From Archangium sp. (GTDB lineage: Bacteria > Myxococcota > Myxococcia > Myxococcales > Myxococcaceae): a stretch of 64,000 nucleotides of DNA. This document shows positions 44,595-60,953 of the stretch, piece by piece (the first letter of the stretch is position 1; the number at the start of each line of letters is the position of its first letter). The notes beneath the pieces were generated by a model. That model saw only the letters and a list, made by a program, of their open reading frames with translations. It had not been told where the DNA came from and searched no databases. The translations under genes were made by a program, and so were the position numbers. The stretch is taken from positions 1-64,000 of the forward strand of contig JALHMW010000001.1 in NCBI GenBank assembly GCA_022843845.1. Direction: 5' to 3'.

Positions 44595-47500
44595 TCAGGA
44601 AGCTGACGAGCCGTGACAGCGGAACCGGTAGCCGCAGCCGAGCGCCTCGCAGCGTTCGAGTGGCCGGAGTTCCCACCGACGAGACGCCTGAGACTGCACG
44701 AGCGCGCGGGCCTGCGCGACGAGCTGGCGTTCGAGATCGACGTCGCTCGGTAAGCCGTCGAGGAATCGCGGCGTCGCATCGTCGTGGCGCAGGTACGAAA
44801 TGCCAGCGCGCACCTCGACCCCGGGTACCTCGACGAAGCGGCGCGCGGCGAGCGCGTAGCACCCGAGCTGAAACGCGTACGGCTCGAGCCCGGCCGCTGA
44901 CGGCGTGGTCGTCTTGTAGTCGATGACGTCGACCTGCTGATCGATGACCAACAGATCGATCTGCCCTCGAAGGTGCAGTGAGAAGTCGTCGTCACCCAGG
45001 CGCAGCACGAAGGGCAACTCGCGAAGCACTTTGCGCGCGCGCGGCAGCCGCTGCCCATACGGCGAGGTCCAGAACCGCTCGACCCACCGCAGCACGTCCT
45101 CGTCGTGGTCGGTGCCGAGCCCGCTGGTGCGCTGCAGCGACGCAAGACGGTCCTTCAATCCGGGCGCGTTCACCCAGTCGAGCGGGGTCAGCTCGAGCAG
45201 CTTGTGCGCGGCGGTGCCCATCAGACGTGGGTCTCCAGGCATCGGCTCGTCGTCGACCTGCTCGGCCCACTCGAACGCGATGGGGCGCTCCGCGAGGCCG
45301 ACCTGGTGCGCGAGGTGGAAGCGCCGTGGGCAGGTGACGAAGTCTTGCAGCTGGGTGACCGGCAAGACGGCGTCACGAACGGGGACGGGCTGCGTGGCTC
45401 TTACCCGCGTCACGAGGGCGGCGACCTCGGCGCGGGTGGCGTCATCGAGCTGCGCGGCAGCGGGCACCGGCCGGCCCTGCGGGAGCGCGTCGACCAGCAC
45501 ATCCATCGCGGCGTGGCGATCGCTGAACTGCTGCCACCAGAAGTCGTCGAACTTCAGCCACGAGGCCCAGGTGTTCCGTTGCGCTTTCGGCGGCTGCAAC
45601 CCGAGCACGACGCGATCTCTCGCGCGGGTCAACGCGACGTAGAGCAGCCGACGTCGCTGCGCGTCTTCCCGTTTCGACTTGAGCGCCTTGCACTGCAGGT
45701 ACCGCGCGCTCCCGGTGGGCTCATTCGCCAGCGACGTCACGGCAAGCCCAACGTCGCGATCGAACCGGATGCGCTCGCCGCCCGGTGGCGTCGTCGTGAA
45801 CAGCTCGGGGATGACGACGACGGGCCACTCGAGCCCCTTGGCCTGGTGCACCGTCATCAACGTCACGGCCTCGGCGTCACCTTCATCGAGCACGTCACCT
45901 TGCGCTTCTCGAGGCTCCGTATCGGCGAGCTCCAGCAGCTCACCGGCGAACTGCGCGACTGGCACCCCCTGCGCCTGACGGAGCGTCGCGAGATCGACCA
46001 GCTTGTCGAGGTTGGCGAGCGCCTGTTCTCCAAACGGCCCGGCGGCGACGGCGACGCGGTACTCGAGCGACTCCAGTGCCACGCGGAGCAGATGCCGGAG
46101 GCCGAGGCGATCGCGCTCGCGGTACAGCACCAGCCACGCCTCGTGAAACCGGCGGAACCGGAACCGCTCGGCGTCGTCGAAGGCCGTGAAGTCACCACCG
46201 TCACCGAGGAGCACGTGCTTCGGATCGAGTCCGTTCACCTGCGCGCCATCGAGCGCGAGCGAGACGAGCGCCGTGTCCGACAGCCCGACGAGCGGACTGC
46301 GCAACACGGCCGCGAAGGCGATGAGGTTGGACGGATCGGCGATGAGCTGGAGCAACGAGGCGAGATCGATCACCTCCTGCGCTGCGTAGAAGCCGCGCCC
46401 ACGCACGATGCGGTGCCGAACGCCGTGTCGCACGAGCGCCTGCCGATACACCTCGAGCTGCGTGAAGCGCTGGAAGAGCACCGCCACGTCACCACCGACC
46501 ACCATGCGCGGCGCTGCGTGCTTCGGCGCACGGGGAACGATCTGCACGCTCGGGTCGGCCAGCATCATCGCGAGGTATCGCGCGAGCGCCTCGGCCTCCG
46601 CGGCGCGCACGGCCTCGACCGACGGCGTCTGCTCACTCTCCGCGAGCGCCTCGGGCATCATCAGCCGCACGAGCGCAGGCCCCGGCGGAGCGTTCTGCCG
46701 AACTGCCGTCAACGCGTCGGTCTCGGGGTCGAACTCCACCTCGAAGGGGAGCCCGCCAGCCGTCTGGTCTCCACGAACGAGGAACCGCTGGCTCTGGTTG
46801 TTACAGAGGTCGACGATCTCCACCGTCGAGCGCCGTGACTGCTGAAGGAACTGGCGCTGCCCACCGCTGGCCTCGATGCACTTCGCCATGCGCTCGAAGA
46901 CGGCGACGTCGGCGCCACGGAAGTCGTAGATGGCCTGTTTGCGATCGCCGACCACGGCGAGGGCAGCGGGCTCCAATGGAACGTCGAGCGTCTCGTTCGA
47001 CGGGCCTTCTCCCAACTCTCGCGACAGAGGCCGCGGCGCGCCGTCACGCTTTTCCGCGAGGAGCAGCACGAGCTCGAGCTGCACGCGGTTGGTGTCCTGG
47101 AACTCGTCGACCAGCACCACGCCGAACCGTCGGTGCGCGTCACGCCGCGCCTCGGGAGAGTTCCGGAGCAGATCGCGCGTTCGCACCAGCAGGGCCGTGA
47201 AGTCGAGGGCCCCACGCGCATCGAGCGCCGCCTCGTACGAGGCGATGCCCTGCTTCACGAGCTCACGAACGACCGCGTCGAACGGCGCCATTCGCCACGA
47301 CGTCCACAAGGCGCCGGGAGCGCTGGCTCCGTCACCCTTCCCTCTGAACGCCTCACGCAGCGGCACGACGTCGGCGCGCTTCCAGTTCTTGAAGGCCTCA
47401 TCGAGCAGGTCGCGGTGCTCGGGCCAGTTCTCGACGGTGACCTGCGCGAGGCGCCGGCAGATCTCGTCGACGCGCGCGCGATACGCGTCCCGCACCTCGA

Positions 47501-48332
47501 GCGTTCGCTGCAGCGTCGTGGCGATCAGCCGAAGCCCGCGCACCGTGGCCAGGAACGCCTCGCGCGCCTCGTCTTGATCCTGCACGGGGATCAGCTCGAC
47601 CTGCGTCCCCTCCTCTCGAATCGCGGCCGACACGCGCACCAGCGAGCTCACGAGGCCCCACGGACTGCTCGCGCCGAACCCGAAGTCGCGCACGAGCTCA
47701 CGCACCAGCGCGTCACCCGCTTCCAGCCGCTCCAGCACCACACGCTCGACGCACTCGGCGAACAGGTGCCGGCCCTCACGCTCCTCGATCAGCTCGAACG
47801 CCGGGTTGACCCCACTGCCTGCCGGCGCGCGACGCAGCACCTGCGACATGACGGAGTGAAACGTGCCAATACTGGCGGCGCCGAGATCGTCACGAACGGA
47901 ACGCCAGAAGGCCTTCGGCGGCATCGATCGACCCAGCGACGCAAACGACGTCTCGAGCTCGAGCTCCCGCGATTCCCCCTTCGCGTCACCCGTCGCGAGC
48001 CGATCGAGGCGCTCGCGGAGCCGTTGGCGCATCTCGGCGGCGGCCTTGTCCGTGAACGTCAGCAGGCAGAGGCTGGCAGGCGCGACGGGCTCGTGCCCTG
48101 CGCGTGCTCCGCCCAAAACGTGGAGGCACAAGGTGATGAGGCTGTACGTCTTGCCCGCGCCGGCACCAGCGAAGAGCGCGAGGTTGGACTCGAGACGGAG
48201 CGCGCGCTCCAACGGCGTGGCGTCGTCGGGCAACGGCGCGGGCGGTGGCGGCGGCGTGTTGCGCGGCACCGGCAAGACGCCGAACTCAAAGCCGAGCTGC
48301 GAGGTGTCGGGAACTCTGCGGCGCGCAGCCAT
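44595..48332 (-). CDS. addA: Helicase-nuclease AddA-like (UvrD helicase with RecB-type nuclease)
   Basis: The 1245-residue protein joins an UvrD/AddA helicase to a C-terminal PD-(D/E)XK nuclease. Walker A is FAGAGAGKT (54-62), Walker B LVDEFQDT (407-414), and a helicase motif near the middle reads TVHQAKGLEWPVVV. The nuclease core shows GQIDLL (Asp1126) and VIDYKTT (Asp1138, Lys1140). Four cysteines (1001 in TCPRRF, then 1228, 1233 and 1239) flank this domain as in Fe-S AddB-type nucleases, which is unusual for AddA. With AddB it should process double-strand breaks for RecA. It follows a partial addB copy by no more than a few bases. Confidence 0.9.
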   Translation of the reverse strand: MAARRRVPDTSQLGFEFGVLPVPRNTPPPPPAPLPDDATPLERALRLESNLALFAGAGAGKTYSLITLCLHVLGGARAGHEPVAPASLCLLTFTDKAAAEMRQRLRERLDRLATGDAKGESRELELETSFASLGRSMPPKAFWRSVRDDLGAASIGTFHSVMSQVLRRAPAGSGVNPAFELIEEREGRHLFAECVERVVLERLEAGDALVRELVRDFGFGASSPWGLVSSLVRVSAAIREEGTQVELIPVQDQDEAREAFLATVRGLRLIATTLQRTLEVRDAYRARVDEICRRLAQVTVENWPEHRDLLDEAFKNWKRADVVPLREAFRGKGDGASAPGALWTSWRMAPFDAVVRELVKQGIASYEAALDARGALDFTALLVRTRDLLRNSPEARRDAHRRFGVVLVDEFQDTNRVQLELVLLLAEKRDGAPRPLSRELGEGPSNETLDVPLEPAALAVVGDRKQAIYDFRGADVAVFERMAKCIEASGGQRQFLQQSRRSTVEIVDLCNNQSQRFLVRGDQTAGGLPFEVEFDPETDALTAVRQNAPPGPALVRLMMPEALAESEQTPSVEAVRAAEAEALARYLAMMLADPSVQIVPRAPKHAAPRMVVGGDVAVLFQRFTQLEVYRQALVRHGVRHRIVRGRGFYAAQEVIDLASLLQLIADPSNLIAFAAVLRSPLVGLSDTALVSLALDGAQVNGLDPKHVLLGDGGDFTAFDDAERFRFRRFHEAWLVLYRERDRLGLRHLLRVALESLEYRVAVAAGPFGEQALANLDKLVDLATLRQAQGVPVAQFAGELLELADTEPREAQGDVLDEGDAEAVTLMTVHQAKGLEWPVVVIPELFTTTPPGGERIRFDRDVGLAVTSLANEPTGSARYLQCKALKSKREDAQRRRLLYVALTRARDRVVLGLQPPKAQRNTWASWLKFDDFWWQQFSDRHAAMDVLVDALPQGRPVPAAAQLDDATRAEVAALVTRVRATQPVPVRDAVLPVTQLQDFVTCPRRFHLAHQVGLAERPIAFEWAEQVDDEPMPGDPRLMGTAAHKLLELTPLDWVNAPGLKDRLASLQRTSGLGTDHDEDVLRWVERFWTSPYGQRLPRARKVLRELPFVLRLGDDDFSLHLRGQIDLLVIDQQVDVIDYKTTTPSAAGLEPYAFQLGCYALAARRFVEVPGVEVRAGISYLRHDDATPRFLDGLPSDVDLERQLVAQARALVQSQASRRWELRPLERCEALGCGYRFRCHGSSAS

Positions 48333-48799
48333 CAGTCGACCTCCGCCATCTCGCTCAACCGGCGCGCAGAGATGCGGCAGACGCTGCGAAGGTGGCAGTA
48401 CTCGCAGTCGAGCGGCCGGGCCCCGAAGTCGCCTTTGCGCAGTGAGGCCTGAAGCCCGTGCACGGCGTTGGCGAGGTTGGGGCGCTCCTCCATCGCGGCC
48501 AGACGGAGGTTCTCCAGATCGACCGCGAGGACGTCCTCAAGCGTGTAGTCGGCGTCCTTGAGCACGCGCGAGAGCACCAGCGAGTCGCTCTTCCGCGATG
48601 CCGCAACCACTGCTGACTTCGCGCTCCAGGCCTCCGAACGCCGGCGTTGCGATTCGCGGCGCCGCGTCGGCCGGAGCGAGGCCTGCGAAGGCCGGCCCGC
48701 CACAGACGTCGACGAGCTGAGCGAAAGTGCGATCTGCTCCCGGGTCGACGAAGCCACTGGCCTCGAGTAACGCGACCCGGCCCGAGTCAGGGCTAACGA
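48330..48799 (-). pseudogene. Internally deleted copy of addB (3' end fused to 5' end)
   Basis: Bases 48330-48597 are a near-identical copy of the last about 87 codons of addB (49395-49663), including the CEYCHLRSVC motif and the stop. Bases about 48655-48799 copy the first about 60 codons of addB (52485-52620). Between them, about 48600-48640, lies a short piece of addB 5' sequence (the ATTADFALQ codons) in opposite orientation. About 900 codons of the middle are missing, and the 5' part is frame-damaged. The copy has the same orientation as addB. It sits between addA and a lipoprotein gene, so the lipoprotein is flanked by two copies of the addB 3' end. Confidence 0.85.
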
Positions 48800-48836
48800 T
48801 GGGAACTCGCTCACGCTGCGGTCCAGCGCTCCCGTG

Positions 48837-49373
48837 TCACAAAGAGAAGCATAGCGTCGGCTCTTCGTCGACGAAGACGACGACCGAGGGGTCTGGAATG
48901 AGCACACCGTTCTGAGGCAAACCAGCAAAGTCGCGTCCTCTCGGGAGCTCGGAGACTGGGCTCTCACTACCGATTCCAAAGCGCGTGAAGAAGGGCCTGC
49001 CCTCGGTGTGAGAAGGGACGTCCAATCGCAGGAAGGCGAGTTCGTCACTGGGCTGCATGGTCCATGCGACGGGCACGTCTAAGTTCAAGCTGCGCGACGA
49101 CAAAATCGCAACACCACCCTCGCTCGACTGGCTCAGTACGAACCACCCACCACGCCTCTGCACCGACCCAACCAGCGCAAACTGACCAGGACTCAGCTCT
49201 CGGGTCTCAATGCTGAACCGAACCTGGATGGGCTTCCGCGCCCAGACCCTCTTCTCCCTCAGCGCCGCCTCACAAGAAAAGGCCTGGTCGAGGTCCCTAC
49301 GGCAGCCCGACGTGAACAACGCAAGAAAAGCGATAATGATCGCCTCAATGAGTAGGCGGCCTCCGCTAGTCAT
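48837..49373 (-). CDS. Lipoprotein of unknown function, inserted between two addB ends
   Basis: The 178-residue protein has a lipoprotein signal (IIIAFLALFTSGC, Cys24) and a beta-rich mature part. No family recognised. Its sequence looks lower in GC than the flanking genes (many AAA/AAC/TCT codons), a hint of foreign origin. It lies between the full addB (24 bases upstream of its start lies addB's stop at 49398) and the addB relic. It therefore appears to have entered the addB-addA operon together with a partial copy of addB. Confidence 0.7.
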   Translation of the reverse strand: MTSGGRLLIEAIIIAFLALFTSGCRRDLDQAFSCEAALREKRVWARKPIQVRFSIETRELSPGQFALVGSVQRRGGWFVLSQSSEGGVAILSSRSLNLDVPVAWTMQPSDELAFLRLDVPSHTEGRPFFTRFGIGSESPVSELPRGRDFAGLPQNGVLIPDPSVVVFVDEEPTLCFSL

Positions 49374-49397
49374 CTGAGGCCTCTACCTCGGAATCCA

Positions 49398-52300
49398 TCA
49401 GTCGACCTCCGCCATCTCGCTCAAGCGACGCGCGGAGATGCGGCAGACGCTCCGAAGGTGGCAGTACTCGCAGTCGAGCGGCCGGGCCCCGAAGTCACCC
49501 TTGCGGAGTGATGCCTGCAGCCCGTGCACGGCGTTGGCGAGGTTGGGACGCTCCTCCATCGCGGCGAGACGGCGGGTCTCGAGATCGACCGCGAGGACGT
49601 CCTCCAGCGTGTAGTCGGCGTCCTTCAGCACGCGAGAGAGCACCAGCGAGTCGCTCTTGCGCAGCGCGACCCACGCCGCGTCGACGGACTTCTCGGGGTA
49701 CAGCGCGCGCGCCACGAAGAGATAGAGCGGGAGCTGAAAGTCCTTCAGCAGGAGCGCGTCGAGGCGGGCCTTCGGCGTGCCTGAGCGCGAGAGCTTGTAG
49801 TCGATGACCGCGACCTGACTGGGCGCGACGTCGAGCCGATCGATCGCGCCGACGAGGAAGACGGGCCGCTCGTGCGGCAGCGCAGGCGGAATCGAGATCT
49901 GCTGCACCGCTTCCGCGGAGTCCTTGCGGCCGAAGGTGCTCTCGAACGCCTTCGGCACGGCGCCAGCGATCGGCTCGATGGCCGGGTCGAACACCAACCG
50001 GAGCAGCTCGCGTCGTGCCCGCTCCACGCTGATGTCGAACAGCAGATGGTGTCCAACCGGCAACGAGCGCGACACCTCGTCAGCGGCGAAGACGAGCGCC
50101 TCGTCGAGTTCCTTGGTGACGGCCTCGAGCTGCAACTTCGACGGAGGCCAACGCCCCTTCGCCTGCAACGCGGGGATCAGCCGCTTCAGCGCCGCGTGGA
50201 GCAGCTCGCCCAGCGCGCGGTGGTCCATCTCTTCGCCAGCCTCGTCTTCCTCCTGCACCTTCAGGATGCGCTTGCCGAGCCCGAGGAAGTGACAGTTCGC
50301 CCAGCTCTCGAGCTGGCTCGCGCTGATGGGGTGGGTGGCGTTCCAGTCGAGCGCGGGGTGCAGCCGCTCGAGGACGGAGGGATCGAGCACGGCACCCGAG
50401 AAGCGCCCCGGCACCGCGTCGGCCCGCGAGAAGTACGTGAGCCGCTCGATCTCGATGGCAGCCATGACGTTGGCGTTGATGGCCCACGGCTCGGCGCGGA
50501 CGAGCGCCGAGAGCGCGGGCGCGCGGCGATCTCGTGGAGACTGACGCGTCTCGAGCGGGCTCCAGATCTCCAGCGCGGCGCGGGTACAGAGCTCAGCGGC
50601 AGACTCGACGTCGTCGAGCAGGGGCACCGGCCGATGCGCGCGCACCGTCGTCGGCAGCTCAGGCAAGACCCGTTTGAGCGCGTCGAGGAACGGCGAACGG
50701 AGCGCCTCACGACCTCGCGAGTCGGAGCGTGGATACGACAGCGTCACCGACGGCGCAGCGATCAACGCGTGATGAAGAAGCAGCCGATCTTCAGCCAATC
50801 GAGACGGCAGCGCGACGCCGTCATCGCTCACCGAAAGACGGAAGAGCGTCATCGAGGCGGCGGCGTTGATCTCCGCACGTTCGTCGTCGGACAGGAGCGC
50901 GGCAGGCGGCGACCGACCGGGGAAGCGCCCGTCGAGCAGGCCACCGACGAACACCGCGTCGAACGACGTTCCCGGCAGCTCGCGCACGTCGACGAGCCAG
51001 ACGGCTCCAGCGCGCGGGCCTCGCGCCTGAAGGTTCACCTCGCCCATCGCGAGCGACAACCAACGCGCGAAGGTGCGGCGATCCAACGAAGCAGCGCCAA
51101 GACCCGAGCGCTCCAGCGACAGACGCAACGAGCGGACGAGCGACGAGAGCGCTTCGAACGACGCCTGATCTCGAGCGACCGCGCGATCGACCTCGGCCTC
51201 GACGACATGGCCACGCAGCGACGGCTCGGGCTCTGAGAGCGCCTCGGCGATACCCAGCGCTCCGACGGCCTTCCACCACGCCTCGAGCAACGACGACGCC
51301 GGACCACGCGACGGAATCGAACGGGCGAGCGACTGCACCCGCTTCACTCCGTCGATCAGCGCAGAGAGGTCGTTCACGTCGGCCGTCAACGCGCGACGTC
51401 GCGCCGCTTCACGCGTGCGACGATCGAGGAGCGCTCCGAGCCGCACCATCCACGCGCCCTGCCCTCCCCGCTCCCCAATCACGTCGTTGCGAACGCCGGC
51501 TTCCGCGAACGCGCCTCGCCCTGGCGGCATGCCCTTCGACAACGCGCGGGCGTAGCGGCTCTCGAGCAACGCGGCGACGTCGTCGACGGGGAAGTCGTCA
51601 TCGGCGAGTGAGAGGAGCGAGGCGGCGAGGCGACCGATGGGGCTGCGCGCGAGCGGGAGCCCAAGTCGCGCACGAGACGGAATGTTCAGCGCGTCCAGCT
51701 GCTCGACCAGCAGCTCGGTGTCGTCGGCGAGATCTCGAAAGGCGATGGCGATGCGCTCAGGCGGCGTGCCGTCGGCGAGGCGGTGCTTCACCAGCGCTGC
51801 GATGGCGCGGGCTTCATCGCGTGGCGTGGCACAGGAGACGAGCGCGAGGCCTGGCAGCGTGACCGGCGTCACCTCGGCGGCAAAGAGCTGACGGAGCTGC
51901 ACCGCGAGGGGTTGCTCCGAGGCTTCAGGCACCAGCTCGGCGCCCTGCAGCGACTCCCAGCGCTTCTCGAAGAACCGCGCGACGCCGCCGACGAAGGCAT
52001 CGGTGTGCGGACTGCCGGCCCAGGGCACGACGAGCCGGAAGGAGCGGTTCGAGGTGACACAGGCGCGGGCGAGCGCATCGAGGAAGACGAGGCGGGCCGG
52101 CGCGAGATCGTGCAGGTCGCGCACCTCGATGGCCTCGAAGCGAAGGAGCGCGTCAGGCAGGCCCTGCTCCTTGAGGCGTCTCGTCGCGAGGTGAATGACG
52201 GCGCGGCGGTCGGTGAGGTGCTGGTCGCCGAGCTTCGCGTCGACGGCTTCGTACATCGCGCACAACACGCGCAGCTTCTCGCCGGTGCGGCCGGGAGACC

Positions 52301-52643
52301 GGCTCGCGAGCTCGCTTAAGAACGACGGCGTGACGTCTTGCGACCAGAGCTCCCCACGGAGCACGTCGGACTGGAGCGCGAAGTCGGCGGTGGTTGCGAC
52401 CTCTCCGAACACCGGTGTGGCAAGCCGTGGAGCCTCCACCGCGATGAGCGCGCGCACGAGCCATGGGTCGGCCGGCGCCAGTCCTGCGAAGGCGGGCCCG
52501 CCACACGCGTCGACGAGCTGAGAGAAGGTGCGATGCGCTCCGGCGTCGACGAAGCCGTCACGTCGGCTGGCCTCGAGCAACGCGAGCTCGACCCGGCCCG
52601 AGTCAGGGCGAACGAACAGGGTCGAGGCATCACGGGGAGACAC
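49398..52643 (-). CDS. addB: Helicase-nuclease AddB-like (inactive helicase plus Fe-S nuclease)
   Basis: The 1081-residue protein has AddB layout: an N-terminal helicase-like part without a clear Walker A motif, and a C-terminal PD-(D/E)XK nuclease with GAIDRL (Asp935) and VIDYKLS (Asp948, Lys950). The Fe-S ligands match B. subtilis AddB spacing: Cys784 (ANCHFLG), then Cys1058-x2-Cys1061-x5-Cys1067 in CEYCHLRSVC. It partners AddA in break resection. The start ATG is 121 bases from the FGE-like gene upstream. Partial copies of its two ends lie on both sides (see relics at 48330 and 53870). Confidence 0.88.
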   Translation of the reverse strand: MSPRDASTLFVRPDSGRVELALLEASRRDGFVDAGAHRTFSQLVDACGGPAFAGLAPADPWLVRALIAVEAPRLATPVFGEVATTADFALQSDVLRGELWSQDVTPSFLSELASRSPGRTGEKLRVLCAMYEAVDAKLGDQHLTDRRAVIHLATRRLKEQGLPDALLRFEAIEVRDLHDLAPARLVFLDALARACVTSNRSFRLVVPWAGSPHTDAFVGGVARFFEKRWESLQGAELVPEASEQPLAVQLRQLFAAEVTPVTLPGLALVSCATPRDEARAIAALVKHRLADGTPPERIAIAFRDLADDTELLVEQLDALNIPSRARLGLPLARSPIGRLAASLLSLADDDFPVDDVAALLESRYARALSKGMPPGRGAFAEAGVRNDVIGERGGQGAWMVRLGALLDRRTREAARRRALTADVNDLSALIDGVKRVQSLARSIPSRGPASSLLEAWWKAVGALGIAEALSEPEPSLRGHVVEAEVDRAVARDQASFEALSSLVRSLRLSLERSGLGAASLDRRTFARWLSLAMGEVNLQARGPRAGAVWLVDVRELPGTSFDAVFVGGLLDGRFPGRSPPAALLSDDERAEINAAASMTLFRLSVSDDGVALPSRLAEDRLLLHHALIAAPSVTLSYPRSDSRGREALRSPFLDALKRVLPELPTTVRAHRPVPLLDDVESAAELCTRAALEIWSPLETRQSPRDRRAPALSALVRAEPWAINANVMAAIEIERLTYFSRADAVPGRFSGAVLDPSVLERLHPALDWNATHPISASQLESWANCHFLGLGKRILKVQEEDEAGEEMDHRALGELLHAALKRLIPALQAKGRWPPSKLQLEAVTKELDEALVFAADEVSRSLPVGHHLLFDISVERARRELLRLVFDPAIEPIAGAVPKAFESTFGRKDSAEAVQQISIPPALPHERPVFLVGAIDRLDVAPSQVAVIDYKLSRSGTPKARLDALLLKDFQLPLYLFVARALYPEKSVDAAWVALRKSDSLVLSRVLKDADYTLEDVLAVDLETRRLAAMEERPNLANAVHGLQASLRKGDFGARPLDCEYCHLRSVCRISARRLSEMAEVD

Positions 52644-52764
52644 GGCGGCACTGTATCGGCTGGGGCTGACACCGTTGCCAGCGCGATGCGCGTCAGGCGG
52701 AGCTCCCGCGCGAGGTTCAGCCCGTCGTCCAACTCGCGGCGCTCCGAAGAGGACCGCGCGCCGG

Positions 52765-53811
52765 CTACTTCACCGTGCGGACCGGGCGGAATCCGATGGC
52801 CGCAGCGTCGTACTCGGGGTTGTAGTTGTTGCGCCACGCCGCCCGTGAGAACTCGGCGCGCTCCCGGTACGAGCCTCCACGAATCGCGCGATCCTTATGG
52901 TCGGCCTGCTCGAGGCCGCCGTTGACCGGGTCCGTCAGCTCGCCCTTGAAGCCCTCCCAGACCCACTCGTCCCAGGTCCACTCGGCGACGTTGCCCAGCA
53001 GGTCGTGCAGCCCCCAGGCGTTCGGAGCCCGGGTACCGACGCGCTTGATCTCGTCGCCCGTGTTGCCGGTGTACCAGGCGATGGCGTCGAGCTCGCCGTA
53101 GCGGGCCTCGACCACGCCTGCGCGCGCGGCGTACTCCCACTCCGCCTCGGTCGGGAGCCGGTAGCCCGTGCAGTCGAGCCCCGACTTCCACACGGCGAGC
53201 GGCCCCTTGAGCTCGTAGCAGGGCTCGAGCTTCTCCAGCTTCGAGAGGGCGTTGAGGTACTCGAGCGCGCCGCGCCAGGTGATCTTGCCGGCCGGGCAGT
53301 CCACGCCGCACGCGTCGATCCACGAGAGCGTCGGCTCACCCATCACGAAGTGCCACTCGCCCTGAGTGACCTCGGTGGTCTTCATCATGAAGGAGCGCGT
53401 GAGGGTCACGGTGGCCTGGAACTCGTTGCGCTCGCGGCCCTCCTCCGTCTCCGGTGAGCCGATGGTGAAGGTGCCCGGCTTCAGGGTGACGAAGGTCTTG
53501 CCCCACTTCGAGAGGGCCTTCGGCTTCTGGAGCTTCGGCGTCACCGGCAGCGCCTCGGACTTGTGCCACTCCACCGCCCCACCACCAGTGCCACCGCTCT
53601 TCGCGGCGCAGCTCCACCCTCCTCGCGCGGCCTGCTTGAAGCGGCCTCCCGACTTGATGCAGTCGTTACACGAGGCCCGCAGGCCCTTGTCAGCGCGGAG
53701 CTCCTGGTTGCACCCCGCCGCCGTCGTGAGCAGGTCGCGCGCGTGCGCTTCCTGAGAGCTGAGGCCGACGAGGAGCGCTGCAGCGATGGTGACGGCACGC
53801 AATGCGTTCAT
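52765..53811 (-). CDS. Secreted formylglycine-generating-enzyme (SUMF1) family protein
   Basis: From the ATG at 53811 the protein has 348 residues with a signal peptide (MNALRAVTIAAALLVGLSSQEAHA). After a short Cys-containing region (CNDCIKSGGRF) comes the FGE-sulfatase domain (about 95-348): TFTIGSPETEEGRERNE, TEVTQGEWHFVMG, RLPTEAEWEYAARAG, LLGNVAEWTWDEW, RGGSYRER and the terminal IGFRPVR. In myxobacteria such proteins are numerous and often act as surface or regulatory proteins, not as true sulfatase activators. A longer frame starts at 53850. It lies upstream of addB on the same strand, and a copy of the addB 5' end lies just before it. Confidence 0.88.
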   Translation of the reverse strand: MNALRAVTIAAALLVGLSSQEAHARDLLTTAAGCNQELRADKGLRASCNDCIKSGGRFKQAARGGWSCAAKSGGTGGGAVEWHKSEALPVTPKLQKPKALSKWGKTFVTLKPGTFTIGSPETEEGRERNEFQATVTLTRSFMMKTTEVTQGEWHFVMGEPTLSWIDACGVDCPAGKITWRGALEYLNALSKLEKLEPCYELKGPLAVWKSGLDCTGYRLPTEAEWEYAARAGVVEARYGELDAIAWYTGNTGDEIKRVGTRAPNAWGLHDLLGNVAEWTWDEWVWEGFKGELTDPVNGGLEQADHKDRAIRGGSYRERAEFSRAAWRNNYNPEYDAAAIGFRPVRTVK

Positions 53812-53869
53812 GCGACTGGATGGTAGCCACAGCCGGCGCGAGCGGAGCATTGAAGAATCCGAAGGCCGG

Positions 53870-53975
53870 CCCCACAGGTGTCGACAGAGCCGTCACGTCG
53901 GGTGGCTCGAGCAGCGCGAGCTCGACGCGGCCCGAGTCATGGCGAACGGAGAGGGTCGAAGCACCGACCCGGGGC
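53870..53975 (-). pseudogene. Second 5' fragment of addB
   Basis: This stretch matches the start of addB (52545-52630) with few differences; both share CCGTCACGTCGG, then GGCTCGAGCA/CCTCGAGCAA, GCGAGCTCGAC and CGGCCCGAGTCA in the same order. The orientation is the same as addB. An indel near 53880 and the loss of all downstream sequence make it non-functional. The FGE-like gene therefore lies between a 5' addB fragment and the complete addB. Confidence 0.75.
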
Positions 53976-53995
53976 GATGGCGAATGGGCTGAAGC

Positions 53996-54196
53996 TCAGT
54001 TCGCCGACCAGGTCCCGGTGAGCGTCGTGCACGAGGCCTGAGCCGCGGCCACGTCACCGCCGGTGTAGACGACGAAGTTGCTGCTGCAGGTGGCGCCGCT
54101 CGGGCAGGCCGCACCGCCGAAGAGGCTGCCCAGCGTGCAGCGCCCGATGATGTCGGTCGTGGCGCAGCTCTCGATGGACACGCCGCTCGTGCACGT
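53996..54196 (-). pseudogene. C-terminal fragment of a Cys-rich secreted protein
   Basis: A frame with six Cys (ESCATTD, RCTLGS, ACPSGATC, ASCTTLTGTW) ends at 53996. The last GTG start would be 54181, giving 61 residues, and a stop codon lies at 54197-54199. Repeated C-x(n)-GxC modules ending in a GTW motif are the usual C-terminus of myxobacterial exported Cys-rich proteins. No signal peptide is left, so this is more likely a 5'-truncated remnant than a gene. Confidence 0.5.
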
Positions 54197-54208
54197 TCAC
54201 GGCCGGGC

Positions 54209-54579
54209 ATGAAGAAGCCTGCCGTCTTCACGCCGCCGAAGTTCGTGGACTCGCTCGCGTTCGTCTCGGAGCACGAGGTGGTGCTGGGCTGCGGTGACGA
54301 GGTGCTCCGGCGCTACGACGTTCGTTCCCCAGACAAGGTGCTGTCGGAGACGCCGGCGCCCGAGTACCGGCGGCTCGTGCAGAGCGCGGAAGGTCGACGA
54401 ATCGCCCTCAGCGCCCCGACGCGTACGTCGATGCGAACGGTGCACGGGTGTTCGACGTGGAGTCGTTGCGGCAGCACCTCGCGTTCGAGGGCGCGTGCAA
54501 GGTGCTCGAGTTCTCGGGCGATGGCATGAAGCTGCTCGTCTCTGACGGGACGAAGCTGCAGGTGCACGCGGTGCCGTGA
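54209..54579 (+). pseudogene. Frameshifted WD40-like beta-propeller fragment
   Basis: From the ATG at 54209, the frame gives VDSLAFVSEHEVVLGCGDEV, then VRSPDKVLSETPAPEYRRLV and RRIALSAP, a WD40/YVTN-like blade. After a CCCC run near 54415 that frame becomes nonsense, but the next frame continues as DAYVDANGARVFDVESLRQH, then VLEFSGDGMKLLVSDG, to a TGA at 54577-54579. One extra C in the run would join the two. It is short for a propeller (about 123 residues in all), so it may also be the remains of a longer gene. Confidence 0.6.
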
Positions 54580-54611
54580 AGCGGCAAGAACTCCGCGCCG
54601 TGTTGCAAACC

Positions 54612-55733
54612 CTATGGCGGCGCACACAGCTCGAGACGGGTGATCGCCGCGCAGCCAGCGCCATGGCCGATTGCCTGTGAGTGCTGCACTGCGAAGCGGC
54701 CCGGCGTCGCGGGGTCGACCTCGATTGCGAGAAAGCCCGCTCGTGAGCACTTGCTGAGCCGAGGAAGAGACACGGGCTCGCGCGCCACGGAGAGATCATC
54801 GAGATGAAAGAGGAGCACGGTGGGCGTGGGATCGTCGTCAGCCCACGACGCGAGCGCCACCCGGCCTGCGCCGTCGACCACTGCAGCGATCGAGAACAGG
54901 GCTCCAGTCTTCACCTCGAGCGTCGCGTCCGGGATCGGCGCGACGCTGTAGCGCGCGAGCATCACTGATGACGCGCAGTGACGAGCGACGAGCCAGCCGC
55001 CCGGAAACGGCGCCACGACTGGCGCAACGGGAAGCGAAGACGCGCGACAGGCCGGGAGTTGGAGGTCGAGGTCGCCCACCAACACGCGCGGGCCGCTCGA
55101 ATCGACCATCGAGACGATGTTCGGAACCGTCACCGAGAGGGCGCTCACGCCTCCGTCGAATGACAGCCTCTGCACGCTCGGATTGGAGAAGACGACTTCG
55201 CTCGGCTGATCCCGGAGTGAGGCCAGGTTGCGGTCTGAAACGACGGCGAGCCAGGCGCCGTCGTGCGCGATGTCGGCGGCGTGCACCAATCGCGACTCGA
55301 ACAGGGGGTCGAACGACAGCCCCGACCCGTCGAGGTCGAGCCGAAGGAGTCCAGTCGGCTCGCCTGCCTGATTCCCAGCGAGGGCGACGAAGCCAACCCG
55401 CGCCCCCCGGAGTCTCAGCGACCGACCCGCAGCCTGCGGCCAACCGAGAAAATCGACGACGCGCTGCGGGGCACCGACGCGCGGATCGCTCGGGAAGGTC
55501 GTCAGCGCGCGGCCGCCGGGCTGCAGCCTCGCAAAGAGCCCAGGCCGCGAAGCCAGCAGCCCGCCGCCGCTGGAGAAGGGAACCTCAGTGGTCGAAACGA
55601 GCGCTGTTGGCTGGCATCGCCTGACGCTCAGAGAGGTCTGCGGCGTCACCTGCCACGGGTTCGAGATGGGGTCGCACGCAGACATGGCGAGGAAGAGAAC
55701 AAGAGCGCTTCGCCGGCCGGACCAGGGAGCCAC
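54612..55733 (-). CDS. Lipoprotein with beta-propeller-like body
   Basis: The 373-residue protein has a lipoprotein signal (LFLAMSAC, Cys20). The rest is rich in short strands of the kind ...GAWLAVVSD..., GGWLVARH and GRVALASW, spaced by about 45 residues, as in seven-bladed beta-propellers. A few Cys pairs may form disulphides. It follows the larger propeller-like lipoprotein at 55776-57491 by 42 bases on the same strand, so the two may form an operon. Function unknown. Confidence 0.65.
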   Translation of the reverse strand: MAPWSGRRSALVLFLAMSACDPISNPWQVTPQTSLSVRRCQPTALVSTTEVPFSSGGGLLASRPGLFARLQPGGRALTTFPSDPRVGAPQRVVDFLGWPQAAGRSLRLRGARVGFVALAGNQAGEPTGLLRLDLDGSGLSFDPLFESRLVHAADIAHDGAWLAVVSDRNLASLRDQPSEVVFSNPSVQRLSFDGGVSALSVTVPNIVSMVDSSGPRVLVGDLDLQLPACRASSLPVAPVVAPFPGGWLVARHCASSVMLARYSVAPIPDATLEVKTGALFSIAAVVDGAGRVALASWADDDPTPTVLLFHLDDLSVAREPVSLPRLSKCSRAGFLAIEVDPATPGRFAVQHSQAIGHGAGCAAITRLELCAPP

Positions 55734-55775
55734 GAGAGAAACCTATCACCGCCCCAACGCGGCTCGTCTTCGCGG

Positions 55776-57491
55776 CTACCAGCCCGCGGGCACGGGGCGC
55801 TTGAAGGCCGTGATGAAGCCGGTGAACCAGAGGCTCGACTCATCAGTCCAGAGCACTGGGCCGATCGCGTCTCGAATCCACGGCACCGCGATGCCTGGTT
55901 CGCCATCCTTCGCCGAGACCCACTCCTCGCTGCCCACGAGGAGCTTCTCTCGCAGAAAGAGAAGGCTGGTCGACCAGGCCTGACTGCCTCGATTCAGCTC
56001 GACCCACGAACCGCCTTCGAACTGCAGCACGCGACGACGGTCGCTCCGGCCAAGTTCCCGCTCACCGATGACGATCGTGTCACCTCGAGACGTGAGCGCA
56101 TTGATCCCCCAGGCCCGCTCAGGCGTGCGCAGCGTCTTGAAGGCGCCGTCGAACGTGAGGAGTGGTCCCCTGTCGAGTGCCACCACCACCTTTCCCGGTG
56201 CGAGAACCCGGAGCTCGGTGCCAGGGGCATCCAGGGAAGCGACCTTTCGAAACGCCCCACCCTCTCGGCGAAAGAGCGCCGAGCCGCTGCCGAGCCAAAC
56301 CTCGTCTTTGTTCAGGCCGTCGATTCCCCAGGGCGTTCCCTCGACGTTCACCGGTGTCCAGGTTTGGCCATCGAAGTGCTCGAGCGTCGAAATCCGACGT
56401 TCGTAGCGCAGCCGATAGACGTCTGTCGGCCCGCTTCCCCAGGCGAAGAGCACGTTGGCTCCCGCCCATACTCGAGTTGGCATCGTTCCCCAGGCCTCGG
56501 GGGGTTGGGTCTCGTCGAGCGGGTGATGAGTGGTGAGATGCCACGCCCCCGAACGCCAGACGTAGAGGTGGTCCGGCCCGCCGCACCATGCGCGGTCGTC
56601 GCTGAGCCGCAGCAACTGATTGCAGCCTCTCGGATCATCGCCGCTCACCGTGGGAGCGCCGGGCGGCCGCGGTTGCGGCCCTGGCGAAGACGGAATCGCT
56701 TGCCAACCACTGCCGGTCCAATCGCCGAGCCGTTGATGCCTGACTCGACCAGCGACCAGCGACAGGGAATCGGGCCAGCTGCCTTCGGAGCGCGCCAATT
56801 CCTCCCAACTCTCACCGCGCGAGCGAAGGACGACGTTGACCGCGCTGCTGGGGGTCGGGCACACCATGCCGCTTGCCCAGACCTCATCGCGGCTGAGTGG
56901 AAGGACGGTTCCCAGGTAGCAGAAGGGCAATGGCGCGAACGGCTCGCGCCACGCTTCTGCCTCGCGCCGCACCACGTGGTCTCCAAACGAGAGGTCGAGC
57001 CCGTTCCCCGGTGCGGCCGCTTCGGAGGATGAAAGGGCCCACAACGTGCCATCGGGGCTCTGCATGAGATTCCCAAGCTGGCGAGTCGTCGGGTCCCGCG
57101 TCCAGGTGGCGCCATCAAATCGAAAGGCCGCACCCTGATCGTCGGTAGTCCATACTTCGTGCGGTTCGACGAGAGACGCCGATGCCAGCGCCGACGACGT
57201 CGGAACGCGGTACGTCGCCCAGGCCTCGTCCTCCCAGACCAACAGCACTCCGGGACCACCAACGGCGTACACGAATGATGGAGTTGAGGCTTTGACGGTC
57301 CACTGCCGACCCCGAATGAGGCACCAGTCGTCGCCCGAACAGGGCTCGGTGGGGAGCAGCGTCGGCTGCCCTCGTTGACCGGGCACCTTCGGCGAAACCG
57401 CAGCGGCCTGCGTCTCGGGCTCCGCGGGGAGTCGCTCGGCGCAGGCGGTCGCCATCGACAGACACCACACCGCCCATGCGCCTCGAAGCAT
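55776..57491 (-). CDS. Large lipoprotein with Trp-rich propeller repeats
   Basis: From the ATG at 57491 the protein has 571 residues and a lipoprotein signal (WCLSMATAC, Cys18). The body contains many blade-like units with W/DEVW motifs: EPHEVWTTDD, DGTLWALSSS, RDEVWASGM, DVYRLRYERR, KDEVWLGSGS, SSLWFTGF. Such DxVWxxG repeats mark a family of surface beta-propellers common in myxobacteria, with unknown ligand. A longer frame reaching 57755 is rejected because it would run through the relic region and lacks a signal. Confidence 0.7.
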   Translation of the reverse strand: MLRGAWAVWCLSMATACAERLPAEPETQAAAVSPKVPGQRGQPTLLPTEPCSGDDWCLIRGRQWTVKASTPSFVYAVGGPGVLLVWEDEAWATYRVPTSSALASASLVEPHEVWTTDDQGAAFRFDGATWTRDPTTRQLGNLMQSPDGTLWALSSSEAAAPGNGLDLSFGDHVVRREAEAWREPFAPLPFCYLGTVLPLSRDEVWASGMVCPTPSSAVNVVLRSRGESWEELARSEGSWPDSLSLVAGRVRHQRLGDWTGSGWQAIPSSPGPQPRPPGAPTVSGDDPRGCNQLLRLSDDRAWCGGPDHLYVWRSGAWHLTTHHPLDETQPPEAWGTMPTRVWAGANVLFAWGSGPTDVYRLRYERRISTLEHFDGQTWTPVNVEGTPWGIDGLNKDEVWLGSGSALFRREGGAFRKVASLDAPGTELRVLAPGKVVVALDRGPLLTFDGAFKTLRTPERAWGINALTSRGDTIVIGERELGRSDRRRVLQFEGGSWVELNRGSQAWSTSLLFLREKLLVGSEEWVSAKDGEPGIAVPWIRDAIGPVLWTDESSLWFTGFITAFKRPVPAGW

Positions 57492-57603
57492 GCTGGAAGT
57501 CGTAGCCGGTCGAACTCCGTCAAGACAAGACGGAGGGGTGAGCGCGACTGGTCGCGAGCCTTCCATCTGTTTTCTGAAGTAGTCGACGCGAGGAGTCCCG
57601 GGG

Positions 57604-57745
57604 CCTTGTCTGTTCAGCCGTCGATGGCCCAGAGTCCGTCCTTCATGGTTTGCGTCGCGGTAGCGATCCTCCTCACCTCCGGCTGGTCCTGCGCGGAAGA
57701 AGATCGCTGCATCACCAACCACCTGCGCGGAGCACTCGCGCAGGG
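57604..57745 (+). pseudogene. Truncated 5' copy of the surface-protein gene at 58493
   Basis: About 140 bases (57604-57745) match 58451-58595 closely: about 40 bases of leader (CCTTGTCTGT...CGTCGATGGCCCAGAGTCC), a start ATG at 57645, and 33 codons reading MVCVAVAILLTSGWSC then EEDRCITNHLRGALAQ against MLSVAVALLLTSGWSC and EEDRRITNHLRGALAQ in the intact gene. Similarity stops after ALAQ. The frame runs on without meaning into the SUKH gene region. This and flanking sequence fill the 349-base gap before the SUKH gene. Confidence 0.85.
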
Positions 57746-57840
57746 GCCGGAACACTCAGGGCCACGTTCGCCAACGCGCGCTCGCTGCTTCGTTGAACGA
57801 AGAAGTCAGGGTGGTCGCAGTTCCGGCTACCCTCACCACG

Positions 57841-58407
57841 ATGGAAGCCGCTCGTCTTCGGGTCGCGCTCGAGCGCACACCCGGTCTCGTCCCCCGCGCG
57901 CCGGCGCGGGCCGATCGCATCGCGGCGCTCGAGCGGCGACTGTCGATCTCGCTGCCTCCCGCGTACCGGCGCTTCGTGCACGAGGTGGCTGATGGTCTCG
58001 CCTTCGAGGGAGCGTCGTGGCTGTTCTCGCTCGAGGAGATCGCGCGCGACCTCGCGACTCACGGTTCCCCGTCGCGGCCCTTTCCGTACGGGGTGAAGCA
58101 GGCAGCGGCGATTCGCACCGCGCTCGCGGCCGCGTCCACGGCAGGGAACGTCTTCTCGCCCGAGGTGCTGGCGCTCCAGTCCGTCGGCGAACTCGATGGC
58201 TGCCTGACCCTCGCGAGCAACGGCGGAAACGACTTCTCGGTCCTCGTCGTGACCGGCGAGCAGGCAGGCTTCGTGTGGCGAACCGGTGAGCTCGACTTCC
58301 CCGAATCACCACGGCTGTACGATCCCAGGCGCTCCGACGACTCGCCGCTCGACTTCGACGCCTGGCTCGTCCGATGGGGCGAGTGCTTTCTCGGCCTCGT
58401 CGTCTGA
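57841..58407 (+). CDS. SMI1/KNR4 (SUKH) family protein
   Basis: From the ATG at 57841 (a TTG at 57793 is in frame) the protein has 188 residues. It shows the SUKH core: an N-terminal helix with IAALERRLSISLPPAYRRFV, then a GASWLFSLEEIARDL strand-helix unit, and a C-terminal helix ending LVRWGECFLG. Many SUKH proteins are immunity proteins against polymorphic toxins, while others are regulatory. No toxin gene is adjacent, so it may be an orphan immunity gene. It lies between the truncated copy (57604) and the full copy (58493) of the same surface-protein gene. Confidence 0.8.
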   Translation: MEAARLRVALERTPGLVPRAPARADRIAALERRLSISLPPAYRRFVHEVADGLAFEGASWLFSLEEIARDLATHGSPSRPFPYGVKQAAAIRTALAAASTAGNVFSPEVLALQSVGELDGCLTLASNGGNDFSVLVVTGEQAGFVWRTGELDFPESPRLYDPRRSDDSPLDFDAWLVRWGECFLGLVV

Positions 58408-58492
58408 AGTCGAGGCGGGTCCTGGCTCCGTGAGTTGTGAATCGCGGGGCCTTGTCTGTCCAGCGGTCGATGGCCCAGAGTCCGGCTTCTTC

Positions 58493-59683
58493 ATGCTCTC
58501 CGTCGCGGTCGCGCTCCTCCTCACCTCCGGCTGGTCTTGCGAAGAAGAAGATCGCCGCATCACCAACCACCTGCGCGGAGCCCTCGCGCAACTCGAGTCG
58601 AGCCCGCCTGCTGACTTGAACGACGCGCAGCGGGCCGCGCGGCACGACGCGCTGATGGTGCTCGGCCGGTACATCGACGCTGGTCGATTCCCGAGGTGGT
58701 CTGGGGCCGGCTTCGTTCCGGTGTTCGTCGACGCGGCAGGCACCCGGTGCGCGATGGGCGAGGTGCTGTTCCACGCGGCCGGCGAAGGGCTTGTGGAGCG
58801 GGTTCACGAGACGGCGAACGAAGCGACGATCGATCAACTCTCTGGTGATGGGGAGCTGAACGCACGGCTCGAGGCGATTGGCTTCACGCTCGAAGAGGCC
58901 GCGCTCGTTCAACCGATGTATCGATGGTGCGAGCCGTACCGCGCATTACAGGTGTGCAGCTACGGCGTTTCGTCGCCGGAGCTCCCGGCTCCTCTGAACG
59001 TCTCCATCTACGTGATGGATGGAGGGCAGCTCGAAACGAGCGAGGTTCTCAGCGGTCAAGCGGGCCCCTTTCATCCCGACGTGCTCGAACTCAGCCGGCG
59101 GGCAACTCCGTCCTGGGCCGCGCTCCCTGACGGAACCAGGATGTTGATTGCAATCGATCGCCAGTTTCCAGATCGGGTTCTCTTCGCTCGAGGTGAGAGA
59201 TGGATCGCCGACACGGATGCGCTGTGCGCGGCGCCGCTCTCGCTCTCCGACGCTGAAGCTCGAAGGCTCGTCCAGCTCCCACCGCAGGCGTGTCTGCAGT
59301 CGCTGGCAGCGATGGACGGGCGGTGGCTGCTCCTCGCCTGCGAGTCGTACCCTTCACACTGGAGACCGGGCGACCTGCGCCTGAACTTTGCCCAGGGCGC
59401 GCAGCACGAGTCGTTCTGTCGAGAAGACGGTTCGTTCCGTCAGGAGATCGTTCAACCGCGCGAGGCCTTCAACCACTGGCTGCGATTCCGACTCCGCGAT
59501 GCCGGCCTCCCCGAGGATGTGTACGACGTGAACCTCGCGCCCGTGGAGCTGCCCGCGGCGCGCGTCGAGATGTTCCGCGCGGGCTGCCACACCGGAGCCG
59601 CGTCTCCCGCAATCGCTGCGGCTGCCCTGCTCGTGACGCTCCGCCTCCATCGTCGGCTCAGGCGCCGTCACGACGATCGCTAA
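58493..59683 (+). CDS. Exported protein with a conserved Cys-containing domain and MYXO-CTERM-like tail
   Basis: The 396-residue protein has a signal peptide (MLSVAVALLLTSGWSC). Residues about 25-135 form a domain with FVDAAGTRCAMGEVLFHAAG, LVERVHETANEATI and GFTLEEAALVQPMYRW, a pattern I associate with myxobacterial and Bacteroidetes exported proteins of unknown role. The C-terminus reads RAGCHTG, a hydrophobic AAAALLVTL stretch and RLHRRLRRRHDD: the Cys, membrane, Arg order of a MYXO-CTERM-like anchor. Further in-frame starts upstream are inside the SUKH gene. A truncated copy of its 5' end lies at 57604-57745. Confidence 0.7.
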   Translation: MLSVAVALLLTSGWSCEEEDRRITNHLRGALAQLESSPPADLNDAQRAARHDALMVLGRYIDAGRFPRWSGAGFVPVFVDAAGTRCAMGEVLFHAAGEGLVERVHETANEATIDQLSGDGELNARLEAIGFTLEEAALVQPMYRWCEPYRALQVCSYGVSSPELPAPLNVSIYVMDGGQLETSEVLSGQAGPFHPDVLELSRRATPSWAALPDGTRMLIAIDRQFPDRVLFARGERWIADTDALCAAPLSLSDAEARRLVQLPPQACLQSLAAMDGRWLLLACESYPSHWRPGDLRLNFAQGAQHESFCREDGSFRQEIVQPREAFNHWLRFRLRDAGLPEDVYDVNLAPVELPAARVEMFRAGCHTGAASPAIAAAALLVTLRLHRRLRRRHDDR

Positions 59684-60823: not shown

Positions 60824-60953
60824 GGCGCGGTGGCGCAGTCCCCGAAACGATCGCGATTGATGGCGAGGCCCCTCACCTGTCGGTTCGATCCGACAACGCG
60901 GTTCCGTCATGTGGGGCTGGTGATTGGACCGATTCTTGAGAAGGTGCGTCGCT

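Follow-up and report, generated by a model that had tools for sequence, protein, structure and literature searches.

The window, a stretch of 64,000 nucleotides from Archangium sp. comprising bases 1–64000 of the 318-kb contig C1 of a genome labeled G000, contains three genes that each lie between a complete gene (the target, X) and a partial copy of that gene (the stub). These bracketed genes, termed cargo below, encode a predicted lipoprotein, a protein with an FGE-sulfatase domain and a SUKH-like protein. Insertion is accompanied by a partial duplication of the target, the duplicate has the same orientation as the target, and one copy is complete. The genome comprises 4.95 Mb in 54 contigs and is 86% complete; genes were called with an in-house caller. 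It was compared with six congeners (G001 to G006), all of them fragmented drafts, and homologue searches covered 23 other genomes. The closest comparison genome was G003, with 93% identity over addA. The locus has the following features:

44595–48332, minus strand: addA-like helicase-nuclease, native downstream neighbor of addB (Pfam UvrD-helicase, UvrD_C, PDDEXK_1)
48332–48596, minus strand: 3' piece of stub A, the last 88 addB codons (stop included), 93% identical to the complete copy
48602–48629, plus strand: inverted scrap near the joint of stub A, about 28 nt from the addB 5' region (blastn, stub 202–229 against addB 330–303, 93%)
48666–48799, minus strand: 5' piece of stub A, beginning of an addB copy that has lost 9 and 6 nt in two deletions, 80% identical to 52467–52615
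48837–49373, minus strand: cargo 1, predicted lipoprotein, 178 amino acids, guanine-plus-cytosine (GC) content 0.596, no Pfam family
49398–52643, minus strand: first target (X1), complete addB-like PD-(D/E)XK protein, 1081 amino acids
52765–53811, minus strand: cargo 2, FGE-sulfatase-domain protein, 348 amino acids, apparent signal peptide (by eye), PF03781 at 7.6e-37
53877–53963, minus strand: stub B, decayed addB 5' end upstream of the FGE gene, 87.5% over 88 nt
57593–57742, plus strand: stub C, roughly the first 33 codons of the second target plus the region before them, 89% over 152 nt to 58439–58590
57841–58407, plus strand: cargo 3, SUKH-like protein, 188 amino acids (204 amino acids from 57793), SMI1_KNR4 at 6.5e-5
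58493–59683, plus strand: second target (X2), complete gene, 396 amino acids, no Pfam or NCBIfam family

The names addA and addB were given from domains and synteny and are to be read as addA-like and addB-like; matches to the NCBIfam AddA and AddB models were below cut-offs. Direct repeats enclose the lipoprotein gene (48329–48596 and 49395–49662, 93% over 268 nt), the FGE gene (52542–52629 and 53877–53963, 87.5% over 88 nt) and the SUKH gene (57593–57742 and 58439–58590, 89% over 152 nt). The lipoprotein and FGE brackets share one target, the addB-like gene. Read along the minus strand, the order is stub B (the addB 5' end), FGE gene, complete addB, lipoprotein gene, stub A and addA, and addB 5' sequence is present three times within 5.3 kb (48666–53963). 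At the third locus, the 5' stub is followed by the SUKH gene and the complete 396-amino-acid gene.

A first-pass annotation of this DNA had described three separate loci with the common order truncated copy, cargo, complete gene, the copy always in the orientation of its target. Direct repeats were indeed found around all three cargo genes, with target and copy co-oriented throughout, but there are only two targets. The described order applies to the FGE and SUKH loci, where the stubs are 5' ends. The lipoprotein locus departs from it: complete addB is followed by the cargo, the stub and addA. Nor is stub A a simple truncation; it consists of both addB ends joined, with about 2.7 kb of the middle lost and about 28 nt inverted near the joint. 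A longer, weaker inverted repeat (I1) was detected at 48586–48643 (76%). The 3' piece of stub A holds the native junction with addA and retains its TGATGG overlap with the addA start. Beyond an internal deletion in stub B, more addB sequence is visible.

The lipoprotein gene, with a GC content of 0.596 as compared to 0.695 for addB, had no homologue in the 23 other genomes or in a plasmid collection. At E ≤ 1e-10, the FGE protein matched only a paralogue in G000 (49%) and a relative in one of the six congeners (48%). The SMI1_KNR4 match of the SUKH-like protein scored 24.0 bits, below the cut-off of 25.4, and only remote matches to this protein were found, in four of the 23 other genomes. Transposase and integrase families were absent from the window proteins scanned, ten with Pfam and six with NCBIfam, and the window has no tRNA gene. 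The 14 cargo genes of the survey described below likewise gave no transposase or integrase match in Pfam, in agreement with the first-pass annotation, which had seen neither.

The addB–addA junction was compared with that of relatives. In 17 of 19 relatives' loci (L002–L020), addA comes after addB, the gap being put at −132 to +324 nt by protein comparison, too small for the 537-nt lipoprotein gene; the other two loci, those of G002 and G004, stop short of addA and are unreadable. At the DNA level, both addB 3' copies of the window align to a single copy beside addA in G003, G001, G005 and G006. Since relatives have a single copy and adjacent addB and addA, the lipoprotein gene and the addB duplicate count as additions in the window. 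Within the window, this is the only bracket with a readable empty site in relatives; the surroundings of the FGE and SUKH genes are non-syntenic with the relatives examined, and in G003 the region upstream of addB is occupied by other genes over about 8 kb. Near stub B, only the 3' end (about 395 bp, 92%) of a gene survives at positions 54188–54580; G003 has this gene in full (806 amino acids; contig C349, 32152–34572). As the rest of this gene is gone, the stretch has undergone deletions as well as insertions.

A survey for further brackets covered 1.409 of the 4.95 Mb of G000 (all of C1, C3 and C4, 300 kb of C2 and 200 kb of C5). Repeats had to be at least 80% identical, at least 50 nt long and 300 nt to 8 kb apart, with at least one called gene between them and one copy, though not the other, in a complete gene; repeats within a gene were excluded. 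Six brackets were found, six direct and none inverted, and three of them lie outside the window:

C2, 6120–6269 and 7576–7725: 3' stub
C3, 69890–69985 and 74538–74632: 3' stub
C5, 50216–50297 and 54431–54506: 3' stub

These three are ordered complete X, cargo, stub, neighbor. Over all brackets, the repeats are 83–268 nt long and 83–93% identical, with none above 93.3%. A scan of the 1.41 Mb for local repeats (E ≤ 1e-4, at least 80% identity) revealed 13 direct and no inverted repeats; hence, direct bracketing exceeds chance. The pair at 144729 and 151817 of C1 was not counted, as both its copies lie in complete genes.

Empty single-copy sites were present in relatives for four of the six brackets, namely addB/addA, C2, C5 and C3. 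At C2, the site is empty in all six congeners, with both flanks in native order. At C5, the next gene follows X without cargo in five of six congeners, the contig of G002 ends there, and in G006 the site holds other DNA (about 1.1 kb). At C3, X lies directly beside its neighbor in G004 and a part-match to X occurs there in G005, both without cargo; the flanking genes are joined without X in G001, G002 and G006, and G003 has another gene.

The same rule yielded no bracket in 1.32 Mb of other genomes (440 kb of G006, 400 kb of G012, 132 kb of G001, G003 and G005, and 350 kb of E. coli MG1655). Were brackets as frequent there as in G000, 5.6 should have turned up (P 0.004), or 2.9 with the window cases set aside (P 0.05); the numbers are small, and an excess of brackets in G000 is possible. 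Pairs with genes between them that lie outside called genes were not counted (two direct and four inverted in G012, two direct and two inverted in E. coli). Among 40 further loci from relatives (145,561 bases), one local repeat of at least 75% identity was seen, 50 nt at 80% in L134; it sits in and beside a gene of a repetitive lipoprotein family and was also left uncounted. The idea that such brackets recur across the genome thus gained three more cases in the part of G000 searched, all direct, but none by the same rule in the other genomes scanned, and a general mode of gene gain, as suggested by the first-pass annotation, is not shown.

The cargo comprises the lipoprotein, FGE and SUKH genes, a HYDIN-like lipoprotein, a kinase, a CarboxypepD_reg protein and proteins without an assigned family; a restriction-modification system is not among it. 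In the single-cargo brackets, the cargo is co-oriented with X in four of four cases, and the two larger brackets are mixed. Enrichment of lipoproteins, FGE proteins and immunity families had been anticipated. A crude lipobox pattern was found in 4 of the 14 cargo genes as compared to 93 of 1152 genes overall (P 0.02 uncorrected, prompting case included), a weak enrichment; FGE and SUKH genes each occur once among the cargo, both in the window, and for these families enrichment is not shown. The C2 cargo has 80% DNA identity to a gene on another G003 contig, including about 110 bp of 3' flank. The HYDIN/Cep192-like lipoprotein family has several copies per genome (in G000, C2 6374–7528, C28 11494–12645 and C38 13100–13471; in G003, C48 62081–63259). 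The C38 copy is 82% identical to the flank of the G003 copy, and its gene part matches the C2 cargo at only 60% in protein. Judged from these alignments, the copies look as if they exchange segments.

Codon-level comparison of stubs and complete copies bears on their origin. In the addB 3' stub, 18 of 264 coding sites differ from the complete copy, 16 of them silent and 2 replacement, and the uncorrected silent divergence is 0.25, as compared to 0.29 between G000 and G003. Under a null in which the stub decays freely and the complete copy is constrained at an assumed 5% replacement rate, about 61% replacements are expected (P 1.5e-5). Because silent changes outnumber replacements in this way, most of the divergence between the two addB 3' alleles appears to have built up at a time when both worked, the simplest setting being two different genomes; a duplication long kept functional is a possible alternative. 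Three states are found only in the stub and three or seven, by two counts, only in the complete copy. Along the gene, complete addB shows no obvious mosaic break in its divergence from G003, and the stub edges at the junctions are too decayed to be placed to the base.

Of the origins considered, the following sequence of events seems the most likely. Incoming DNA, in which cargo is linked to part of a related strain's X, would pair with the resident X. Its integration would take one crossover or, alternatively, an event that homology anchors on one side and that is illegitimate at the far end. In homology-facilitated illegitimate recombination, short shared sequence is found at the non-homologous junction. 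Selection would then retain only those outcomes that leave X and its neighbor functional, and the spare piece would decay through point changes, deletions and small inversions. For this one-sided homologous integration of related-strain DNA with subsequent decay, we put the chances at about even. Selection for a working X and neighbor would leave one complete copy and a preserved native junction. The addB stop overlaps the addA start, and the same tight arrangement exists at C2; in tight operons both genes stay functional after an insertion only if it duplicates the junction, and the rule of one complete copy therefore needs no special machinery. Furthermore, the lack of any bracket above 93.3% identity is what would be expected of copies that started out as distinct alleles. 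A section of PMC8538405 describes Myxococcus xanthus as naturally competent and introduced plasmids as persisting by integration, including homologous recombination, which makes the route feasible. A wider claim would be that the lineage repeatedly fixes DNA of related cells joined to unrelated cargo via single crossovers into housekeeping genes, a transposase-free process in which the repeats preserve the donor allele and so record the donor; this we think rather unlikely.

Several observations weigh against integration from a related donor. X and cargo stand side by side in no congener readable at these sites, so at least one junction must be illegitimate; we infer donor DNA carrying both, and unsampled donors are possible. 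The relative of the C2 cargo in G003 lies on another contig, away from X. The five other stub comparisons (stub A 5', stub B, C2, C5 and the SUKH target; silent divergence 0.13–0.25) pooled gave 29 replacements among 57 changes, P 0.07 against the null of duplication and decay; taken singly against wholly neutral change, the P-values were 0.008, 0.13, 0.026, 0.63 and 0.041, the stricter pooled null being preferred. Branching sites are few: in four comparisons, three join the stub with the complete copy, two the stub with G003 and two the complete copy with G003, and in the addB 3' piece the counts are 2, 0 and 0, leaning toward stub with complete copy. A clear foreign-allele signal is limited to the addB 3' stub. 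Moreover, the lack of young brackets with identical copies may simply reflect the breaks that fragmented drafts have wherever repeats are exact. For the single-crossover integration put forward in the first-pass annotation, the silent excess at the addB 3' end is thus favorable, the position of the cargo in readable congeners is unfavorable, and the other stubs are not decisive.

The main rival, which we regard as possible but doubtful, is a duplication that arose within the genome itself: at a break or a stalled fork, end joining or template switching would have attached foreign or ectopic DNA, part of X being copied in the process, with no donor X, initially identical copies and a decaying stub. 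Changes confined to the stub dominate over those confined to the complete copy in stub B (8 vs. 1), stub A 5' (6 vs. 0) and C2 (5 vs. 1), and such an origin agrees with cargo that does not adjoin X in readable congeners; the inverted scrap in stub A also fits template switching, though it could be later decay. The addB 3' stub argues the other way, both by its silent excess and by its equal numbers of stub-only and complete-only sites (three each). Moreover, identities of 93.3% at most would mean that all brackets are old, yet G003, the closest genome, has empty sites for addB-lipoprotein, C2 and C5. In a further rival account, an ancestral segment with the cargo already in it was duplicated in tandem and then lost parts by unequal deletion. 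This would account for a stub A with both addB ends, which was then once a near-complete copy, and for the triple occurrence of addB 5' sequence; with relatives that show X beside its neighbor without cargo and a lipoprotein that lacks homologues in the 23 other genomes, we consider this origin unlikely.

An artefact of a strain-mixing draft seems slightly less probable still. Three congeners (G001, G003 and G006) are metagenome-assembled genomes, G000 is probably one as well, and the divergence between stub and complete copy is about that seen between two species. Two wrong joins would, however, be required at C2, where the flanks are in native order in relatives; there is no N in 618 kb, the same architecture is seen at six sites, and deletions and an inversion in stubs are not a usual product of assembly. 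An unrecognized mobile element with its own target specificity would explain the recurrent architecture and the clustering of half of the brackets, three of six, in 10.3 kb of sequence (Monte Carlo P 0.003), though two of these share X. The cargo, however, belongs to differing families without a Pfam match to a transposase or integrase, the repeats vary in length from 83 to 268 nt, and we hold such an element to be very improbable.

The brackets match a known, though little studied, pattern, insertion with long target duplication, which reportedly has no recognizable transposase or integrase of its own; the cargo differs. The pattern was named by Nobusato and colleagues in 2000 (Gene 259:99–108) in Helicobacter pylori, where it is frequently tied to restriction-modification genes in the excerpts of two accounts (PMC1643837, PMC3031569). 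As outlined in these excerpts, the insertion is present in one of two related genomes together with a long, variable duplication of a target that is single in the other; here, likewise, direct repeats stand on each side in the same orientation and four of six sites are empty in relatives. The cargo of lipoprotein, FGE, SUKH and other genes and the host, a member of the Myxococcaceae, set the present brackets apart from that outline.

Homology-facilitated illegitimate recombination is invoked for Vibrio type VI secretion system immunity arrays in part of PMC5361080, and the one-sided homology anchor, the illegitimate other end and the remnants of a displaced gene described there resemble the present case. 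In those arrays, the effector is displaced and immunity genes accumulate, whereas here X is complete, the cargo lies outside effector-immunity pairs and the donor of the anchor is unobserved. For transposed genes of Arabidopsis, an extract of PMC2869330 proposes insertion of circles by homologous recombination that leaves genic repeats; these direct repeats derive from mostly genic target-site sequence, and insertion of circular, or linear, DNA was also proposed in the first-pass annotation. Arabidopsis is, however, a eukaryote with circles from the same genome, whereas the cargo here looks foreign or divergent. Given this proposal and the H. pylori pattern, the mechanism, as those extracts present it, is not new in print. 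Small variable bacterial segments are flanked by direct repeats in 10–18% of cases according to a portion of PMC2884548, with 66–94% of the repeats <30 bp; the repeats here differ in their length of 83–268 nt and in being taken from a gene end. Transformation-induced merodiploids of pneumococci, in which DNA uptake yields repeat-bordered duplications, differ by the size of the duplications, about 100–900 kb in the text excerpted from PMC3784515. No report of the pattern in myxobacteria was found in the open-licence literature by a search only partly aimed at myxobacteria. Myxobacterial genomes show fast gene gain and loss, and a passage of PMC8538405 reports sequence-based signs of transfer as missing.

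A stub beside a complete gene is a simple, searchable insertion scar and could indicate the donor lineage where the stub is a foreign allele. As the addB 3' stub illustrates, comparison of stub and complete copy at the codon level can be of use in telling imported alleles apart from duplications of internal origin. This codon signature and the possible excess of brackets in G000 are worth pursuing.

Additionally, some features apart from the brackets were observed. The six congeners measure 7.4–9.8 Mb as compared to 4.95 Mb (86% complete) for G000, which may reflect reduction or incomplete binning. In G012, MITE (miniature inverted-repeat transposable element)-like intergenic repeats of 60–250 bp occur in both orientations at about 1246945–1260798 of contig C1, one pair being 99% identical. 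Downstream of the SUKH locus, positions 60924–63611 encode an 895-amino-acid protein with CarboxypepD_reg domains and a long VDAGV tandem stretch (about 61040–61410), and a repeat similar to this stretch is found in G005 (contig C288, 31391–31637).

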